34,792 nt of DNA from Pseudomonadales bacterium (GTDB lineage: Bacteria; Pseudomonadota; Gammaproteobacteria; Pseudomonadales; Pseudohongiellaceae), in the NCBI GenBank assembly GCA_028281635.1, contig JANQJM010000185.1, forward strand, positions 1-34,792, given 5' to 3'. The position numbers and the translations under genes are program-made. Positions 18,099-29,097 of the stretch are shown one piece after another (the stretch's first letter is position 1; each line of letters opens with the position of its first letter). The notes below the pieces were generated by a model. The model worked only from the letters and a program-made list of their open reading frames with translations, searched no databases and was not told where the DNA came from.

Positions 18099-19679
18099 CT
18101 ATTGGCTTGCTACAACAAATTCGAATTCACCTGACTGCGGGGAGACTTCGTTTCTATAGCTTGCGTTCCAACGCACTACGTAAGTGCCAGGAGTCAATTC
18201 GGATCCGACAGACATCATCAGATCATCAGCTCCCATATTGTGCATTCCCGGTAGGGGGATGGAGGTGTCCGGATCGTCTGTACGATGCAGGGTTACCGTG
18301 CTCGCAGAGACCTCGGGTAATCGATCGAAATACAGCCGCAAAAAACGCGGTGTTTGTTGCAGTTCCGTCCCTGCGGCGGGCTCAGAGCGAATTAGTTCTC
18401 CCAATCCTATGCCCTCTGGTTGGGCACGTTGTACGAATTGTGCGAAGGGGTCTACGTCTGCTTCCTCATGCCACTCATACTCGACACTGCTGGCGAGGTC
18501 ACGCGCGGCCTGAATGCCATGGGTCTTGGCGACCAATCCCAGCGCCATATCAGTGCCAGCAGAAACTCCGGATGAAGTGAACATCTTGCCACTCTCTACC
18601 CAGCGTGCATCAACAACCCAATCCACTTCTTTGCTCTGCTGTTCCGATAAAAAGAAGAAGCGTTTGTTGGCAGTCGCTCTGTGACCGTTTAATACGCCAG
18701 CTTTAGCGAGGAGAGCGGAGCCCGTGCAAACCGAAGTGGTAAATTCAGTTGTTTCGTTTACTACTTCCAGATAGTCAAGAAAATTCTGATTTTCCAGTTG
18801 CTGTCTGGAACCTGTGCCACCTGGCACCATTACAATGTCCAACTGTGGTGCTGTTTCGAAGGAGTGTGTGGCTACCGTGGCTACACCCTGGGCCGACATC
18901 ACCGGACCGGCTTCTTCTGCGATCATAACGATGTTGTAGTCCGGCACATAGGCCCACATCTCAAGCGGACCGTAGACGTCCAGAACTTCGAAGCCTGGAT
19001 ACAAAATGATGCCAAGTGTTTTTCGTGAGTCGTTAACTGAAACCAGTTCGATGGGCTGACTTGTATCCGGTTGGGCGCTTGGGTCGAGCGCAGCAGCAAC
19101 ATAGGCACTGGCGCTTCGATCACTTAGTGCGCTGAATTCTTCTATATTGGAAAAGCCGTCGCCATCTGCGTCGCCTTCAGCTTTAAACCACTCACCCACC
19201 GCAAGGGCAAAGGAATAGTCACCATCCAGTCCAACGCCGAACCCGGCAACCATGGCGTCCATCTGCTGGAAAGAAGTGGCTCCCAGCATGGCGTAACCCA
19301 GTCCAACTTCGGCACTGGTAGACCAGGTCGCGAGAAGAGGTTCCAGATCGGTCATGGCGACCTCGATACCTGATACATAAGCTGCGTAGACAGCATCATG
19401 TGATACACCGCCATCAGTTGAAAAATCCAGGTTTGCGTCTGCCAGGACTGCTGAAATCAGTGCCAGTTCAATCGCATCGGGGACACCGTTACCTACGCCT
19501 TGTCCTTCGCCGTTGAAGTCCAGGGTGGCTGGATCGAACTGCACTCCACGCAGTGCTTCATCGAAGTCCACTTGCAGGGTGTCTGCCGCTGCAACTCCAG
19601 GAAGCATTAGGAAAGCAGTCATGAAGCAGACTGACAACAGGCGAAAACAATCAGGGAATTCAACTTTCAGGAAAGACAT
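18099..19679 (-). CDS. Secreted fusion: EF-hand-like N-part, DJ-1/PfpI domain, CopC-like C-part
   Basis: The 526-aa protein has a long signal peptide (cleaved near residue 31). Residues 35-200 are Ala/Asp-rich with one calcium-loop-like DADGDGFSNIEEF (170-182). Residues 220-405 form a DJ-1/PfpI (GATase1-like, AraC-N-type) domain with LYPGFEVLDVYGPLEMW, MVPGGTG and the nucleophile elbow SVCTGSALLAKAGVLNGHRAT (Cys318). Residues 428-526 are a CopC-like beta-sandwich (LIRSEPAAGTELQQTPRFLR, LTPGTYVVRWNAS, GEFEFVV). The typical CopC N-terminal His and DGH copper ligands are absent; instead GMHNMGADDLM occupies the centre. AGGAG stands before the ATG at 19679. The arrangement suggests a periplasmic Cys-dependent enzyme tied to a metal-binding or adhesive module. 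The exact activity (isonitrile hydratase-like, glyoxalase-like or other) is unknown. Confidence 0.87.
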   Translation of the reverse strand: MSFLKVEFPDCFRLLSVCFMTAFLMLPGVAAADTLQVDFDEALRGVQFDPATLDFNGEGQGVGNGVPDAIELALISAVLADANLDFSTDGGVSHDAVYAAYVSGIEVAMTDLEPLLATWSTSAEVGLGYAMLGATSFQQMDAMVAGFGVGLDGDYSFALAVGEWFKAEGDADGDGFSNIEEFSALSDRSASAYVAAALDPSAQPDTSQPIELVSVNDSRKTLGIILYPGFEVLDVYGPLEMWAYVPDYNIVMIAEEAGPVMSAQGVATVATHSFETAPQLDIVMVPGGTGSRQQLENQNFLDYLEVVNETTEFTTSVCTGSALLAKAGVLNGHRATANKRFFFLSEQQSKEVDWVVDARWVESGKMFTSSGVSAGTDMALGLVAKTHGIQAARDLASSVEYEWHEEADVDPFAQFVQRAQPEGIGLGELIRSEPAAGTELQQTPRFLRLYFDRLPEVSASTVTLHRTDDPDTSIPLPGMHNMGADDLMMSVGSELTPGTYVVRWNASYRNEVSPQSGEFEFVVASQ

Positions 19680-20571: not shown

Positions 20572-22275
20572 TTACTCATCAACATAGTAGGTGAGATAAC
20601 CAGTGAACATTTCTTCCCAGCTCTCCAACCCCCAGGTGACTTCCTCTCTGGGATCAGGATTAAACGGATTGGATAGCGAGTTATCAAAAGCGCCCGCGAC
20701 CTGCACGTTGGTGCCAGGTTCCAGGGTGCGGGGTTCAGTTAGCCAGTAATGTGGTTGCCAGCCGTAGTTGTAGGCTGGGATGCTGAACACAACATCGTCG
20801 TCACCACCTGGAGGCTGTACCGTGAACTTCATATGTTTGCCGCGGTAATTCATGCGCGCTCTCACTGCCAGTAACTTTACGCGCTGGTCGAATTTATAGT
20901 TGGCAGCGATTGGATGCTCTGGATCTTCTGGCGCTATGGTGAAGCGCTCAGCAACGGCGCGGGTCAGGATCTCGTTTTCCGGAGCTTCATCCGCAAAATA
21001 GAGTCCGATGCTGGTAGTCTCGCGAATTTCCACTCCGTTGGTGACATAGTGGAATTGCAGTGCGAGTTTGTGACCAGCGGGGATTCGTACTCCAGAGTTT
21101 TCTGGAAACACTGTCGCTGGATTTTCACCGGGTATAAAGCTACCCAGGAAGCGTCGTTCAGGAGTGGTTTCGGTTTTTTCTGGTCCCCAGAAATCTTCAT
21201 CGGGACCAATCACAAAGGTCATCAGGTGATGAAGTATTCTCTCGTCCCCAGGCGAATACTGAAAAGCCCGAACCCATTTCTCTTCCTCAAAGGGCAATTC
21301 GACTTCCAGATACTCGTAGTCCAGGATGCCTACGGCTGGCACGATATTCGTCGGTGCTTTGACGACAAAGTCTGGTTCGCCAAGTTGCCAGACAAATTCT
21401 TTCTCCAACGGAATTTCTTCCAGCGGATCCACAGAGCCTTCGCCCCGAGGCGCGCCCGCCGCCATCCAGTGGATCAGTTTTTGTCGCTCCTCAGCTGAAA
21501 TTTCATGGGCGTTAGGGGAATCGCTTAATTCAGAGTCAACCTGCATGGGTGGCATGCGTTTGTTCAGAAGCACTTCTCTCACCATCGGTGACCAGCCCAA
21601 CAATGAAACATAGCCGTCGAAGGCAAAAGGGCCTGCGCCACCCCAGCGGTGGCAGATAGCACAATTCTCGACAATGATTGGTGCAACTTCAGTGCTGTAA
21701 TCCGGCGGATTCTGCTGGTGCATGGCCAAATCAGCATAGTCAATCTGGCAGCCGCTTACTTCAGTGGTGAGGGTATCGCTTGCCTCGCCGTTCTCAACGG
21801 CCAGCAATCTATCTGCAAGCGCGTTTTGCGCACCGCCCCGGTAATAAAGTGACATACGCTCAGGATTAAACATGAGCACCTCCCCGGCTTGCGACAGGGA
21901 CAGGCTTTCTGCGACCAGCAGCTTCTCGTCACCCAGGGTGGGATAGGGTATCGCCCATTGCTGTCGTTGTTCGCGGGAGGCTCCACTGACGTCCAACGCC
22001 AGAAACTCGATATGTTCGCCATACTGCTTTTGCAGTCTGGCTAATTCCAGTGAGGCCTCCTCGGCGGCAGGGCATGTAGCATCGTAGGCCAACATGACGA
22101 CAGCCTCGCGATGCTGATAGCGACTCAGTTGATGAAATCTGCCTGTTTCATCCAGCAGGGCGAAGTCGCCGACCCGTTCGGTAGCTGCATGGCTGATACC
22201 GCAAGCAGCAATCAGGGAAACTATGCCTGTTAATAGTGCCTGGATGTTTCTAGAGCTTGGCGCTGACGGAATCAT
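20572..22275 (-). CDS. Redoxin / cytochrome c / PHM-like copper monooxygenase fusion, copy A
   Basis: This 567-aa exported protein has a signal peptide, a redoxin-like domain (32-160, DATCPAAEEA), one heme c motif CAICH (Cys205, Cys208, His209) in a small cytochrome-like domain, then a two-part copper type II monooxygenase fold of the PHM/DBM type (about 290-567). The first copper site looks complete: ILHHLMTF (His349, His350) and QFHYVTNG (His409). The second site normally has HxH plus Met; here the HxH position reads RMN (474-476, in RARMNYRGK), although the WEEM Met556 region is kept. In the paralogue (24732) the position is HMH. So copy A probably lacks one copper site. It forms an operon with the upstream unknown gene (14 bp gap) and the downstream redoxin. 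The substrate is unknown. Confidence 0.85.
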   Translation of the reverse strand: MIPSAPSSRNIQALLTGIVSLIAACGISHAATERVGDFALLDETGRFHQLSRYQHREAVVMLAYDATCPAAEEASLELARLQKQYGEHIEFLALDVSGASREQRQQWAIPYPTLGDEKLLVAESLSLSQAGEVLMFNPERMSLYYRGGAQNALADRLLAVENGEASDTLTTEVSGCQIDYADLAMHQQNPPDYSTEVAPIIVENCAICHRWGGAGPFAFDGYVSLLGWSPMVREVLLNKRMPPMQVDSELSDSPNAHEISAEERQKLIHWMAAGAPRGEGSVDPLEEIPLEKEFVWQLGEPDFVVKAPTNIVPAVGILDYEYLEVELPFEEEKWVRAFQYSPGDERILHHLMTFVIGPDEDFWGPEKTETTPERRFLGSFIPGENPATVFPENSGVRIPAGHKLALQFHYVTNGVEIRETTSIGLYFADEAPENEILTRAVAERFTIAPEDPEHPIAANYKFDQRVKLLAVRARMNYRGKHMKFTVQPPGGDDDVVFSIPAYNYGWQPHYWLTEPRTLEPGTNVQVAGAFDNSLSNPFNPDPREEVTWGLESWEEMFTGYLTYYVDE

Positions 22276-23818: not shown

Positions 23819-24187
23819 GTGCTAGCTCGAGCTTGGAAAGCAGCGTTCATTATTATTGCAGGGGTATTGGCCTCCTGTTCAGCTAATACGGAGCAATCGC
23901 CATTGATTAGAGCCGAGCCCGATATAGGGTCGGTTCTGACTCGAGCGCCACGCACGCTTCGTTTGTATTACACAGCCTTGCCGGACGTTTCACAAAGCAG
24001 TCTGCGACTCGTCGGGCCGGAGGGAGACCTTGCTTTGAGAGGGCTGCACACCATGGCGGCCGATGATCTGATGATAGAGATTCTGGACACGGTTACTCCG
24101 GGCGACTACACCGTAGTCTGGGAGACCGTGGTTGAGGGGAATCCTGCCCAGCACGAGGGTAGTTATCAGTTCAGTTACGCGCCCTAG
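23819..24187 (+). CDS. CopC-like lipoprotein
   Basis: The 122-aa product starts at a GTG (23819) preceded by AAGGAGAG. It has a lipoprotein signal with lipobox LASC (Cys20). The mature part is one CopC-like sandwich: SPLIRAEPDIGSVLTRAPRTLRLYYTALP, LRLVGPEGDL, GDYTVVWETV and GSYQFSY. It is homologous to the C-terminal part of the DJ-1 fusion, including the central GLHTMAADDLM (residues 75-85). CopC proteins bind Cu(I)/Cu(II) in the periplasm; the standard N-terminal His and DGH ligands are missing, while His77, Met79, Asp82 and Asp83 could form a different site. It is divergent from the copy A operon and upstream of the small unknown gene and the copy B fusion. Confidence 0.8.
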   Translation: MLARAWKAAFIIIAGVLASCSANTEQSPLIRAEPDIGSVLTRAPRTLRLYYTALPDVSQSSLRLVGPEGDLALRGLHTMAADDLMIEILDTVTPGDYTVVWETVVEGNPAQHEGSYQFSYAP

Positions 24188-24731: not shown

Positions 24732-26453
24732 ATGCAAATGCAAAAACTGATACTTGGATTGTTAGTGGCCTGCTTGGCTTCAATCGCAGGCGCAGTTGAA
24801 AGAGTGGGGGATTTCACCCTGCTGGATCAGAATGGCGCATCGCATTCCATGAGTTGGTATGACGATCAGAATGCCGTGATTTTTCTCACACAGGCTAATA
24901 GCTGTGATTCACTGAACGGCGTGGCATCTGACTTTGACGCTGTTCGTGACCGTTATGCTGAGGTGAATTTCCAATTCATGATGCTGAATGCTGAGGGTAG
25001 TGTTGATCGCGAAGCTGTGTCTGCCGCGGCTGCGTCCTATGGTTCAGATTTGCCAATTTTGATGGATGAGACACAGATGGTTTCCCAGGCAATGGAAATC
25101 AGTCGTGCCGGTGAAGCCATCGTGTATGATCCCCGATCATTCCGCATTGTGTATCGTGGTCCTGTTGACACTAACTTGTCCGCTGCGCTGGATGAGATTG
25201 CTGCCGGCGAAGACGTGAGCAAAGCGCAGATGCCTGTTACCGGTTGTGAGATTGCCTATGGCATGACGCCGGACGCTTCCATTTCTTACGCTGAGGAAGT
25301 CGCTCCCATTCTGGCCGAGAACTGCGCCACCTGTCACCGTGAAAACGGGATTGCACCGTTTGCACTGAATAATCATCAGGCCGTGCAGGGCTGGTCGCCA
25401 ATGATCCGCGAGGTCGTAATGACGCGACGCATGCCGCCCGGACAGATTGATCATCATGTCGGTAAATTCGACGGCGCCCCAGGCATGAGCAAAGTTGAGA
25501 TTCAAAAGTTGCTGAACTGGATCGCTGCCGGTTCACGCAACGAATCAGATCGCGATCCGCTCACCGAACTGACCTGGCCAGATACCAAGTGGACATTGGG
25601 TGAGCCAGATTTGATTGTGAAGATTCCCGCGCAGCAGATTCCAGCCACCGGCGTGCTGGATTATCGCAACCTGGCGGTGCCTTTAACGGAGCTCACCGAA
25701 TCACGCTGGGTGAGAGGAAGTGAAGTTTCTCCCGGTGATCCCACTGTGGTGCACCACGTGATTCCATCAGTGATTCCTCCCTCCGGTGGAGAGGCTCGAG
25801 GTGAGGGGCAGAACAGCGTGCTGGCCTTAAATCCTGAAGTGCCTACACTGGCTGGCTACGCGCCTGGTTACCAGAACCGCATGGAAGACGAAAACACAGG
25901 TGCCTTGTTGGAGGCGGGCTCCACGATCGTGTTTCAGATGCACTACACAACGTCTGGTAAGGAAACCGTAGATGAAACAGAGCTTGGTATCTACTTCTAT
26001 CCAGAAGGTGTGGTACCAGAAGAACGGGTATCAGGCCGACCTGCCGTGACCTGGGATATCGCAGTACCACCTGGTGTCAAGGATCACGCAATGCAGGCCA
26101 GCATCGAACTGGATCGAGATGTTTATCTGCAAAGCGTGCTGCCCCATATGCACTTCCGTGGTAAGCGAGTGAAGTACATCGCTCAATTTCCAGATGGCAC
26201 GGAACAACTTCTGTTTAATCAGCCGCACTACAACTTTAATTGGCAGTTGACTTACCATTTCGAAGAGCCTGTATTCCTGCCCGCTGGTACGACTATTCTG
26301 GTTGATAGTGCCTTCGATAACTCGGCACAGAATCCCTTCAATCCAGACCCATCTATCACTGTGTATGGTGGCGAGCAAAGCTGGGAAGAAATGTTCTTCG
26401 GGTTTATGACCTGGAAGGACGCCGATCAGAGTAAGTGGGCGGTTAACGACTAG
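24732..26453 (+). CDS. Redoxin / cytochrome c / PHM-like copper monooxygenase fusion, copy B
   Basis: This 573-aa exported protein is paralogous to the 20572-22275 product. Order: signal peptide (1-21), redoxin-like domain (22-160, single Cys58), heme motif CATCH (Cys198, Cys201, His202), and PHM-like domains (about 285-573). Both copper sites appear intact: HH at 341-342 (VVHHVIPS) with QMHYTTSG (His404) for the first, and LPHMHFRGK (His472, His474) with SWEEMFFG (Met553) for the second. PHM-type enzymes use two copper ions and O2 to hydroxylate a C-H bond, with electrons from ascorbate in animals; here the fused heme could supply them. The ATG at 24732 follows CAGGAG by about 9 bp. It ends just before a strong terminator. 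The substrate is unknown. Confidence 0.88.
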   Translation: MQMQKLILGLLVACLASIAGAVERVGDFTLLDQNGASHSMSWYDDQNAVIFLTQANSCDSLNGVASDFDAVRDRYAEVNFQFMMLNAEGSVDREAVSAAAASYGSDLPILMDETQMVSQAMEISRAGEAIVYDPRSFRIVYRGPVDTNLSAALDEIAAGEDVSKAQMPVTGCEIAYGMTPDASISYAEEVAPILAENCATCHRENGIAPFALNNHQAVQGWSPMIREVVMTRRMPPGQIDHHVGKFDGAPGMSKVEIQKLLNWIAAGSRNESDRDPLTELTWPDTKWTLGEPDLIVKIPAQQIPATGVLDYRNLAVPLTELTESRWVRGSEVSPGDPTVVHHVIPSVIPPSGGEARGEGQNSVLALNPEVPTLAGYAPGYQNRMEDENTGALLEAGSTIVFQMHYTTSGKETVDETELGIYFYPEGVVPEERVSGRPAVTWDIAVPPGVKDHAMQASIELDRDVYLQSVLPHMHFRGKRVKYIAQFPDGTEQLLFNQPHYNFNWQLTYHFEEPVFLPAGTTILVDSAFDNSAQNPFNPDPSITVYGGEQSWEEMFFGFMTWKDADQSKWAVND

Positions 26454-26520: not shown

Positions 26521-26874
26521 CTATGCAAGAAACTGAATCCACCAGGTGCTGGTTATCAGGATGAGTGCCAGTGTGCTTAACGCAATATAGGCTTGCTTGA
26601 GATGAAGACTTGCTTTCGCCGCCTGGCAATCCGTGGTCGCAGTTTCTGTACTGCTGGACCAATCGATTCGCCAACCGGCGATTCCGAACAGTCCGATTGT
26701 CAGTGCGGCGAACAATGGCTGGAAAGGTTCCAGCGCCATCATCTGGCTCATCCAGGCGGCACTGATTCCTGTTGCAAGAAGAAACAAGGGGCCGATGCAG
26801 CAGACACTGGCAACGATTGACGTTAACAGGCCGCCGATCAGATAGGGTGAGGTTTTTTTGCTTTCGCCTTGCAT
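26521..26874 (-). CDS. merT: Mercuric-ion transport protein MerT
   Basis: The 117-aa inner-membrane protein has three hydrophobic segments. The first holds the vicinal pair of MerT, TSIVASVCCIGPLFLLATG (Cys25, Cys26), which accepts Hg(II) from MerP in characterised systems. A further Cys lies in the cytosolic loop (TTDCQAAK), where MerT usually has one or two. The length is standard. The ATG at 26874 lies 32 bp after the MerP-like stop on the same strand. No merA, merB or merR is present in the window. In the classical pathway the ion would be reduced by MerA, so it is unclear what receives the metal here. Confidence 0.9.
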   Translation of the reverse strand: MQGESKKTSPYLIGGLLTSIVASVCCIGPLFLLATGISAAWMSQMMALEPFQPLFAALTIGLFGIAGWRIDWSSSTETATTDCQAAKASLHLKQAYIALSTLALILITSTWWIQFLA

Positions 26875-26906: not shown

Positions 26907-27236
26907 CTATGGCGTTTTCTCGGAAGAAGGAAAGCCGATAGCGGTGGTCGCTTTCGTCATGGCCTCGACCGTTACCAATTCAGGCACATAGCGCACAATG
27001 GCTTCTTCGAGATCCAGATCCACTTCTACCGATTTTATGCCTTCAAGCTTTCGTAGTGAGCTGCGCACGGCAACTATACATCCAGCTCAAGTCATATTTT
27101 CGACTTTGAGAATGACTTCTTTTTGGTCTGTTTCCGCGGAGTCAGGTGTCGCACTAAAGACAAATCCTGAGGCTAGTAGTAGTGAAAGCAGACCTGCCAA
27201 AAGCATTGGCCTACTGCTGGCGTATTGACTGTGCAT
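26907..27236 (-). CDS. merP: MerP-like periplasmic metal-binding selenoprotein (TGA at 27089-27087 read as Sec)
   Basis: Read on the minus strand from the ATG at 27236 (ribosome site AGAGGA, good spacing), the frame encodes a signal peptide (MHSQYASSRPMLLAGLLSLL and on to FSA), then EVILKVENMT, then TGA, then AGCIVAVRSSLRKLEGIKSV, EVDLDLEEAIVRY, ...VEAMTKATTAIGFPSSEKTP and TAG at 26907-26909: 109 residues with Sec50. The part after the TGA is an unbroken HMA/MerP domain; classical MerP reads GMTCSAC, and the TGA stands at the first Cys, giving UxxC. A 17-nt hairpin begins 11 nt after the TGA. MerP binds Hg(II) in the periplasm and passes it to MerT. Selenolate has extremely high affinity for Hg. 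A standard gene caller would report only a truncated 70-aa ORF. A nonsense-mutated pseudogene is the alternative. Confidence 0.88.
27059..27075 (-). promoter_or_regulatory. Candidate bacterial SECIS hairpin of the MerP-like gene
   Basis: On the minus strand AGTTGC-CGTGC-GCAGCT folds into a 6-bp stem (third pair U-G) with the loop CGTGC. It starts 11 nt after the TGA and is 17 nt long, the same placement and size as the minimal SECIS of E. coli fdhF. The loop shares CGTG with the hairpin after the SelW-like TGA. A competing 7-bp pairing (27083-27089 with 27057-27063) that includes the TGA itself is also possible. Confidence 0.72.
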
Positions 27237-27267
27237 CAAAAAGTCCTCTTCGATTGCAAACTCGTTG

Positions 27268-29097
27268 TTACGCACCGTTGGCGCAGCAGGGACATCCACC
27301 GCCGCCGCTGGTCATGATCGATTCTGCCGCTTTGGCATTTTGTTCCGCGGTGCGTTTGGTGGTCGCGAACTGTGAAGTGCTTGCCATCGCAGCAGGGTCG
27401 GGCTGGTTTACTGCCACTTCCTGACCGAAGTATCCGGTGCGCACCTGATACTGATGTTGCCCAATGTCTGTTGTAACGCGAATAGTATTGGCATCCACAA
27501 CTTGCACGTCACTGAGGGCATTGCCATCACGAATGACAACTGCTTCGGCAGCATTGGGCAGATTGCTTATCTGCCAGCTGGTAGTGCGTCCAGAGGCATT
27601 GCGGTCTCCTACATAGGTGCCGATGTGCAGGATGCCATTCTCCTTGTCATTCCAGGCCGTATCCACTCCGAGATTTGGGTAGTCGACGCCTTCCAGAGTG
27701 GGAGCTGTGTACTTGTCCATATGCCTCACCTGGAACGCTTCGATCCAGTTGCCTTCAGCGATTTCGCTCATCATCTGTTGGGCGGTTGAAGTTCCGCGTG
27801 GCCAGGGCTCGTCGCGGTCAGACCACCAGCCGAAGCGGTCCATGTCGTCACCAAAGAATCTGGGTTCGGAGAATTGTTCAGCCGCTGCTTGCAGTCGTTC
27901 AAATGCCACATCGTCACCCAGTGCTTTAGCCATCACTTGTGCCAGGGGATTAGGGCGAATTTCGCGGGAGCTATCGCGGAAGCCGCTGCTATTGGCGATG
28001 CCTTCATAGACAAAGGTAGCAATCTCTGGTGATTGAGGCAGCAAGTAAAAGGCAGTCGCTGTGCCCGCACCACCCGGTGTGTTTACTTTAAAGTTTTCAA
28101 GCGGGTCATAGTACAAGGTTGCCCATTCCAGTTCGTTTTGATCATTGATGCTCATGTAATTGTCTTTCATGAACTCAACCCAATCTTCAAAAACCCCATG
28201 GGCGTTGGTAACACCCAATTGATCCGACAGAAAGATGCCTAGCCCGGCAGCAGAGTTGCAGAGCGGCCAAATCTTGGTGTTCTCACAATGAGGTCCTTCA
28301 GGATGATCGGTATATTGCTGGAACAAGTGTTCGACAATTCTGGGCTGCGTCCATTCAAAATGTTCATTCTCATAGCCTGCAATCTCCCAGGGCTGCTCCC
28401 ACTTGTCATCCCCCGACACGTATTTGTAGATGGAGAGAACCAGGTTTAGCCAGCCGCGAAAAAACAGATTGCCATCGGCGCCGATCGGGTCTGGTTGCAA
28501 ACCCCAGGGTTCAACCCCATTGGCTGTCCAACCCGGTCTGTCGTAGTTGCCACGCACTCGTTCAGGCCAGAGCTGGTAACCCGGTGCATTGAATGGACCG
28601 TACTTGTCCCGTTGCGGACTGGGTCCGATGAAGGTATTCCAATCGATAGCGGCCCAATAAGAAGTATGTCTGGATGCCAGCTCATCCATGATGCGGGTAT
28701 AGACTTCACGCCAGGCAGGAGTCTGGTCAGCCATTAGCAGAACCGGGTAACTGGAATCGGCCAGATCGAAGCGCGGATAGCTGAGCATCGGTGGTGCCGC
28801 ATATTGATCCCACCAGGGATGAGGTCCAATCCTGTCTACGGTGAAATCTATCTCGCCACGAGGAATCTGTATTCCCCAGGGAAGCTCAATGTCTTCGCGA
28901 TAACCCCAATCATCGGGAGTGGTCGCTTTTTCCCAGATGAAGCGCAGCCATCCCTTGGTCCTGTCATTGTGGGTAGGGTAGAGCGGGTTGGTCGAAGGTT
29001 GGGCAGCGACAGTGCCTACTCCCAGTGAGGCGGCGCTGCCAATGATCGCGCTGTTCTTTAGAAAGGCCCGACGCGAAATACTCTGAGTATCGCTCAT
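27268..29097 (-). CDS. Tat-exported linalool dehydratase/isomerase-family protein with a CPCC tail
   Basis: This 609-aa protein has a Tat signal (SISRRAFLKN, residues 6-15). The central domain matches the LDI family: GNLFFRGWLNLVLSIYKYVSG, then GPHCENTKIWPLCNSAAGLGIFL, then VFEDWVEFMKDNYM. Cys271 and Cys280 have the same nine-residue spacing as the catalytic Cys171/Cys180 of Castellaniella LDI. A C-terminal domain of about 100 residues follows (beta-rich, GILHIGTYVGDRNASGRTTS), ending in GGGGCPCCANGA, a glycine linker and a CPCC motif that is not part of LDI. The ATG at 29097 is preceded by AGGGGGAA. It leads an operon with MerP (31 bp) and MerT. LDI enzymes hydrate or isomerise terpene alkenes and alcohols; whether this one does so is unknown, and the tail and partners suggest a metal link. 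Confidence 0.82.
   Translation of the reverse strand: MSDTQSISRRAFLKNSAIIGSAASLGVGTVAAQPSTNPLYPTHNDRTKGWLRFIWEKATTPDDWGYREDIELPWGIQIPRGEIDFTVDRIGPHPWWDQYAAPPMLSYPRFDLADSSYPVLLMADQTPAWREVYTRIMDELASRHTSYWAAIDWNTFIGPSPQRDKYGPFNAPGYQLWPERVRGNYDRPGWTANGVEPWGLQPDPIGADGNLFFRGWLNLVLSIYKYVSGDDKWEQPWEIAGYENEHFEWTQPRIVEHLFQQYTDHPEGPHCENTKIWPLCNSAAGLGIFLSDQLGVTNAHGVFEDWVEFMKDNYMSINDQNELEWATLYYDPLENFKVNTPGGAGTATAFYLLPQSPEIATFVYEGIANSSGFRDSSREIRPNPLAQVMAKALGDDVAFERLQAAAEQFSEPRFFGDDMDRFGWWSDRDEPWPRGTSTAQQMMSEIAEGNWIEAFQVRHMDKYTAPTLEGVDYPNLGVDTAWNDKENGILHIGTYVGDRNASGRTTSWQISNLPNAAEAVVIRDGNALSDVQVVDANTIRVTTDIGQHQYQVRTGYFGQEVAVNQPDPAAMASTSQFATTKRTAEQNAKAAESIMTSGGGGCPCCANGA

Follow-up and report, generated by a model that had tools for sequence, protein, structure and literature searches.

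The locus

The window, by which we mean the whole stretch of 34,792 nucleotides analyzed here, contains on its minus strand a frame (27236–26907) that encodes a signal sequence followed by an HMA domain and that is interrupted by one in-frame TGA, at 27089–27087. The translation starts MHSQ, runs VENMT-stop-AGCIVAVRSS across the TGA, the sole internal stop, and ends FPSSEKTP. With the TGA read as selenocysteine (Sec, U), the gene at 26907–27236, called Sec-MerP below, specifies 109 residues with U50, a metal loop NMT-U-A-G-C and a TAG stop. An earlier sequence-only reading had placed the TGA at the first Cys of the metal-binding motif, followed by an intact HMA half ending as MerP does; translation of the minus-strand frame bore out both points, and the Pfam HMA model PF00403 matched the read-through product at 47.4 bits (cut-off 24.8). 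The ribosome binding site and signal peptide of that reading were also recognized, by eye in both cases: an SD-like GAGGA lies at 27244–27248 (minus strand), upstream of the ATG at 27236, and the N-terminus is a hydrophobic signal sequence.

The product thus has the signal sequence, the HMA domain and the ligand pair spaced by two residues that characterize MerP, with U for the first Cys. Against the NCBI MerP equivalog TIGR02052 it scored 61.8 bits, under the cut-off of 92.55, whereas a Cys-MerP from the same genus (L035) scored 152.2 bits. The earlier identification therefore stands as "MerP-like", and not as MerP proper. The open flanks of the TGA are no evidence by themselves, since of the 1283 TGAs that the window contains, 15 (the Sec-MerP TGA included) are preceded by 49 or more open codons and followed by 59 or more. 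The Sec-MerP TGA stands out from chance by the homology of its two flanks, by its recurrence at the same codon in relatives and by the frozen synonymous sites after it.

Relatives and conservation of the TGA

A first search of 58 genomes yielded, besides the window's own genome, ten genus relatives with Sec-MerP, each with one TGA inside the gene. Identity to the window's protein was 50 to 55% for four of them and 38 to 43% for six. The alignment of these 11 sequences served as query for 84 genomes of the window's genus (Pseudohongiella-like), of which 27 carried Sec-MerP, at 28 loci with one in-frame TGA each. This count omits six stop-free MerP-type matches (CxxC) in six of the same genomes, two-TGA matches (the UxxU family), long-frame matches taken as P-type ATPases, a few weak stop-free matches, and a weak match in genome G010 (C176:11100-11264) in which the TGA precedes a merA start. 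A protein-pattern scan of named genome contigs gave 27 loci, with U at the site in 27 of 27; these overlap the genus set, many sequences being identical. Because the patterns covered only sequence beyond the TGA codon, the scan was not by design biased against Cys forms. The loci were labelled Gammaproteobacteria (15), Pseudomonadales (8), and Pseudohongiella, Proteobacteria, SAR86 and Alphaproteobacteria (one each), and these labels are the basis of the term Pseudohongiella-like. No Sec-MerP relative was found on viral contigs, where 19 stretches matched a pattern and none was confirmed.

In all, the loci read contain 28 distinct Sec-MerP sequences, the window's included, and all 28 have UxxC. 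In the protein collection, where the 7989 best-sharing candidates were scored, 223 homologues were found. Among the best 120 of these, the residue at the Sec site was C in 82, W in 23 and R in one (P0018), and in 14 the site was absent from the sequence. The W and R sequences lie within P0001–P0024, and in the 23 public proteins the Trp is probably the product of gene callers that translate TGA as Trp. A tree with 116 rows and 74 columns was built from the 28 Sec sequences and 88 Cys sequences, the latter being 82 of the 96 rows P0025–P0120 plus the six from the genus; the W and R rows were left out. One branch, with support 100/98, parted the 28 Sec rows from the 88 sampled Cys rows, while the inner forks were weak because the columns are few. 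Thus the search for homologues with Cys or TGA at the site, which the sequence-only reading had proposed, found TGA in 28 distinct sequences and Cys homologues only outside the clade; no Cys form was found within the clade among the 28 distinct DNA sequences, the tree and the protein homologues listed. Nor is the downstream half decayed in the relatives, as that reading had allowed it might be; it is intact. In the relative at L069/L093, the neighboring Ldi-like gene (see below) is split in two and Sec-MerP is without a normal signal start, possibly through decay or assembly error.

A SECIS-like hairpin after the TGA

A bacterial SECIS element is a hairpin just after the TGA, at a set distance from it, with a G in the first two loop positions. 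Downstream of the Sec-MerP TGA lies a putative hairpin of this kind, with a conserved core, GTTGC-CGTGC-GCAGC, at 27060–27074 (minus strand); in most relatives the last arm is GCAAC. An outer extension of three pairs, GTG/CAC in most relatives, spans 27056–27079, and two of the three pairs form in the window's sequence. The loop starts 17 nt past the TGA and its second base is G, so that both the distance and the loop G agree with the bacterial pattern.

Synonymous sites were compared in 20 representatives under 85% identical, with 300 simulations in which the sequences were treated as independent. All 20 representatives had the same codons at +3 (TGT) and +5 to +8 (GTT GCC GTG CGC), and 19 of the 20 agreed at +9. 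The synonymous identity at −1 and at +3 to +10 was reached by 0 of 300 simulations. With the rest of the gene as internal control, and with columns of few same-residue pairs left unprinted, no other column did better than 8 of 300, and most matched the null; mildly high values were seen at −9, −8, −7 and −5 (8 to 20 of 300), +11 (8) and +21 (9). Most of the Sec-MerP gene is therefore without the synonymous constraint seen after the TGA.

The frozen bases pair as GUUGC/GCAAC around a 5-nt loop (GUUGC-CGUGC-GCAAC). None of the five inner pairs was broken in any of 23 distinct sequences, the window's GCAGC variant retaining the stem by a U-G pair. Pairing was found in 97.3% of cells across these 23 sequences, versus 24.5 to 60.9% with the partners slid, the structure having been drawn from the very sequences scored. 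Covariation in the hairpin was nil in the same 23 sequences, given that the stem is invariant and 500 of 500 shuffles reached the observed pairing. Folding energies were ordinary against shuffles in the six hairpins tested (z −1.03 to +0.19), one of which had another optimal fold, and folding energy was uninformative here as evidence for a SECIS.

Sec machinery

The sequence-only reading had called for selA, selB, selC and selD to be sought elsewhere in the genome. In the window's own genome, tRNA-Sec (66.9 bits, gathering cut-off 47), SelB (384 bits, cut-off 242) and SelD (285.5 bits, cut-off 125) were found. SelA was absent from searches of this draft, which is 85.8% complete, yet it was found in 76 of the 84 genomes of the genus, 24 of the 27 Sec-MerP carriers among them; completeness is 65 to 86% for the carriers that lacked it (the window's genome G000, G008 and G059). 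The absence of Sec machinery, named beforehand as grounds for abandoning the Sec assignment, is, SelA in the draft aside, not the situation here. The SelD match (G000:C83:31867-32784) sits in an open frame of 759 codons, more than twice the length of the family, perhaps as a fusion; a fused SelD is among the marine data of PMC2398784.

Together, the conserved TGA, the frozen hairpin at SECIS distance and the genome's Sec machinery support the earlier assignment of Sec to the first metal-binding Cys. On this evidence, all of it from sequence, selenocysteine would almost certainly be inserted at the TGA.

The mercury-type neighborhood

Directly downstream of Sec-MerP, at 26521–26874 (minus strand), lies a MerT-family inner-membrane protein gene, as had been noticed before. 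Its product scored 79.2 bits with Pfam PF02411, over the gathering cut-off of 32.9, and 61.1 bits with PRK13751, under the NCBI cut-off of 150. For comparison of neighborhoods, 27 carrier loci were used, one per genome (the window and L072 to L097), with the second locus of genome G076 kept apart. The same order recurred in relatives, a MerT-family gene following Sec-MerP in 26 of the 27 loci, the window's included. Of the 28 distinct sequences, 25 had a CC-x-[GAS]-P motif in the frame after Sec-MerP, the exceptions being L018, L020 and L058.

No MerA or MerR was seen by eye among the window's ORFs, so the locus does not qualify as a mer operon, and no MerA over the cut-off was found in the window's own genome. 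Above-cut-off MerA occurred in four of the 84 genus genomes, all four being Sec-MerP carriers that have a Cys-MerP too, and was absent in 23 of the 27 carriers. Weaker MerA matches, present in 84 of 84, are expected from related flavoproteins. Where both forms occur, in six genus genomes, Cys-MerP is a separate gene, which lies beside MerA in four. One of these relatives, G076 (L065, L153), has Sec-MerP within a full mer island, in the order MerC - SecMerP - MerR - MerT - CysMerP - MerF - MerA, where MerC, MerR, MerT, HMA and MerF scored over the Pfam cut-offs and MerA over NCBI's. Further, in L058, labelled Alphaproteobacteria, merA lies about 2.7 kb from Sec-MerP. Because both forms co-occur and MerA is usually lacking, the Sec form is not a mere stand-in for the MerP of a mer operon but belongs to a second system, in most cases independent of MerA, with a mercury-type neighborhood.

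Elsewhere in the window, a CopC-domain protein is encoded at 23819–24187 (plus strand; 31.3 bits, cut-off 23.3) and by eye resembles the C-terminal part of a DJ-1-like protein at 18099–19679. Two long proteins, at 20572–22275 (minus) and 24732–26453 (plus), have peroxiredoxin-like N-termini, the AhpC-TSA match being under the cut-off in the former and over it in the latter. Both have sub-threshold cytochrome c matches, and the plus-strand protein a sub-threshold match to Cu type II monooxygenase.

The Ldi-like secreted protein

The gene directly upstream of Sec-MerP, at 27268–29097 (minus strand), is its usual neighbor in the genus and encodes a secreted protein with a Tat signal, like linalool dehydratase/isomerase (Ldi; PF18566) and ending GGGGCPCCANGA. 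The Tat-type signal scored 19.0 bits (cut-off 16.7), and around a C-x8-C stretch that they share, the protein weakly resembles linalool dehydratase/isomerase structures (E 0.0022). The window's protein has a CPCC tail, and a C-terminal CxCC was present in all 120 Ldi-like sequences listed, its own included (the best 120 of 1431).

An Ldi-like gene precedes Sec-MerP in 23 of the 27 carrier loci, in one of them in two pieces. It was also found without Sec-MerP, occurring in 62 of the 84 genus genomes. Outside the genus context it was rare: five of 390 genomes sampled across the order had it, all five of the genus, as did three of 369 sampled across the class besides the window's own. Forty genus Ldi regions without an adjacent Sec-MerP were searched with tblastn (E 0.01), and no MerP, MerT or MerC was found within about 1.5 kb downstream; three of these regions have less than 1 kb of downstream sequence, and three further Ldi loci (G065:C78, G084:C66 and G031:C9) lie outside the set. 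In several regions without Sec-MerP a methyltransferase-like gene came next, by eye. These 40 regions and the occurrence in 62 genomes weaken the case for an Ldi-like gene that serves the Sec-MerP system exclusively. In G027 (L105:1063-1464, minus strand), MerC (47.9 bits with PF03203, cut-off 27.6) follows the Ldi-like gene in place of Sec-MerP and MerT.

The CPCC-tailed Ldi-like protein is probably a functional partner of Sec-MerP. A more elaborate proposal, which we regard as doubtful, is that the Ldi-like enzyme, Sec-MerP and MerT might form a MerA-free (organo)mercury module, in which the C-x8-C and CxCC of the enzyme would release or receive the metal outside the cytoplasm, passing it from CPCC to UxxC to MerT, and in which MerC could replace Sec-MerP and MerT.

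Proposed mechanism and alternatives

Taken as a whole, the explanation that we consider likely is that the gene encodes a selenoprotein, a UxxC chaperone that delivers a soft metal, for which Hg(II) is the best candidate, to MerT. SelB and tRNA-Sec would decode the TGA at codon 50 as selenocysteine, directed, as the conservation suggests, by a short SECIS hairpin inside the coding sequence that starts 12 nt after the TGA. Given its signal sequence, the protein would be exported to the periplasm, where it is predicted to fold as an HMA ferredoxin-like domain with the metal loop U-x-x-C for C-x-x-C. It may there bind a soft, thiophilic cation, with Hg(II) the likeliest, as a selenolate-thiolate complex, and, by the model of MerP and MerT, the metal would pass to the paired cysteines of the adjoining MerT-family protein. 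We regard it as very probable that Sec-MerP is a genuine metal carrier based on selenium; proteins of this kind have been listed earlier but hardly described.

As to the cargo, we lean toward mercury as the main one. Because MerA scored over the cut-off in just four of the 84 genus genomes, mercury is a substrate that we infer, and the mercury trap of the sequence-only reading likewise; the link is the relative with Sec-MerP inside a full mer island. It is possible, though on balance unlikely, that Sec is real and the cargo is Cu(I), Ag(I) or another soft ion, or that the protein is a selenol-thiol redox partner, with MerT acting as a generic importer. The HMA profile also strongly matches copper chaperones and ATPases, most carriers (23 of 27) are without above-cut-off MerA, the window has its CopC-domain gene, and in L020 Sec-MerP adjoins a frame with TCPMH repeats that by eye resembles a Cu-type P-ATPase. 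Against another cargo stand MerT and MerC, which are named mercury transport families, and the positions of Sec-MerP in the island of G076 and near the merA of L058.

We think it very improbable that the TGA is read as tryptophan under an altered code, or through plain leakiness. The 23 W residues in the best 120 of 223 public homologues would fit a Trp reading, but TGA is a normal stop here, ending five of the 27 window genes checked, and an altered code was rejected on that ground. The genome has tRNA-Sec, SelB and SelD, Trp makes no chemical sense in an HMA metal site, and the freezing of synonymous sites, which suggests an RNA signal, argues against both a Trp and a leaky reading. Equally hard to credit is separate use of the two halves, as a truncated secreted peptide and a product of a downstream start. 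Some database entries, such as P0039 and P0040, do begin after the TGA; however, in the first 11 sequences conservation of the VxLxVENMT stretch upstream roughly equaled that of the downstream part, and neither half should fold because the TGA cuts the HMA fold at the metal loop. Finally, although a recent pseudogene would typically show just such a lone stop in its frame, a decayed MerP or a sequencing error is ruled out for practical purposes by the recurrence of TGA at this one codon across separate genome assemblies, in 28 distinct sequences, the intact and conserved 3' half, and the frozen synonymous sites.

Relation to known systems

MerP itself (TIGR02052; structures 1AFI and 1OSD) is, like Sec-MerP, a small secreted HMA protein encoded beside MerT, with two-residue spacing in the metal loop, and residues 3–72 of 1AFI align with positions 40–109 of the Sec-MerP profile. 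Sec-MerP differs in its U for the first Cys, its sub-cut-off TIGR02052 score, and the lack of an above-cut-off MerA in 23 of 27 carriers. The sequence-only reading mentioned that Sec-containing metal-binding proteins had been suggested from marine metagenomes, and the 2008 GOS selenoproteome table does list a "Mercuric transport protein MerP", with two sequences and 0 Cys homologues in the set (PMC2398784). The GOS entry is given there as a marine selenoprotein, without motif or domain (PMC2398784), and may or may not belong to the family of Sec-MerP, which is likewise from a marine bacterium.

Two NCBI models come close. NF045683, a MerT/CopZ fusion-like heavy metal transport selenoprotein, combines MerT and an HMA-type domain as the window's pair does, and matched Sec-MerP (E 2e-15, 56.8 bits) and MerT (E 6e-15, 55.3 bits) under its cut-off of 375; it is one fused model of 235 positions, whereas the window has two genes. 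NF041115, the UxxU metal-binding (seleno)protein tabulated in PMC13188914, likewise places Sec in the metal loop of an HMA-like domain, but with UxxU where Sec-MerP has UxxC, and Sec-MerP scored 57.4 bits against a cut-off of 95. Four members of the Sec-MerP family were scanned, and each of their matches to NCBIfam models fell short of the model's cut-off. A Sec-containing E1-E2 cation ATPase (ABB15669.1, UxxC) and a MerT-type protein (ABB16073.1), both in PMC13188914, place Sec in metal transport as Sec-MerP does, but are membrane transporters and not periplasmic chaperones. The Sec MerT-type protein, the UxxC cation ATPase and the UxxU protein are listed in reviews of 2022 and 2026, and the word MerP has 0 occurrences in the main texts of these two selenoprotein reviews. 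The Sec-MerP operon was not found described in the titles and abstracts of the selenoprotein, mercury or linalool dehydratase literature (openly licensed full texts). Evidence from sequence is given here for the SECIS-like element of Sec-MerP, the uniform TGA in its clade and its operon, of which no description came up in the literature searched.

For many of the known selenoproteins, Sec is believed to serve in redox chemistry (PMC13188914). In Sec-MerP it replaces a metal-ligand Cys in a simple, well-understood chaperone fold, as the sole form found in the clade, and for these reasons the selection of Sec as a metal ligand is directly testable with U and C versions. Public gene calls can miss the start of Sec-MerP or write Trp for Sec.

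A second selenoprotein-like family was seen in the genus, with a signal peptide, a UxxU HMA-like domain and a thioredoxin domain (231 residues in L020). Only its HMA part matched NF041115, under the cut-off. Its loci are L020:929-1621 (minus strand), L099, L154, L156, L157, L158 and L161. A MerR-type gene is the neighbor in five of the seven (L154, L156, L157, L158 and L161), MerC lies beside L158 and L161, MerA is about 1.5 kb off in L154, and Sec-MerP adjoins in L020.
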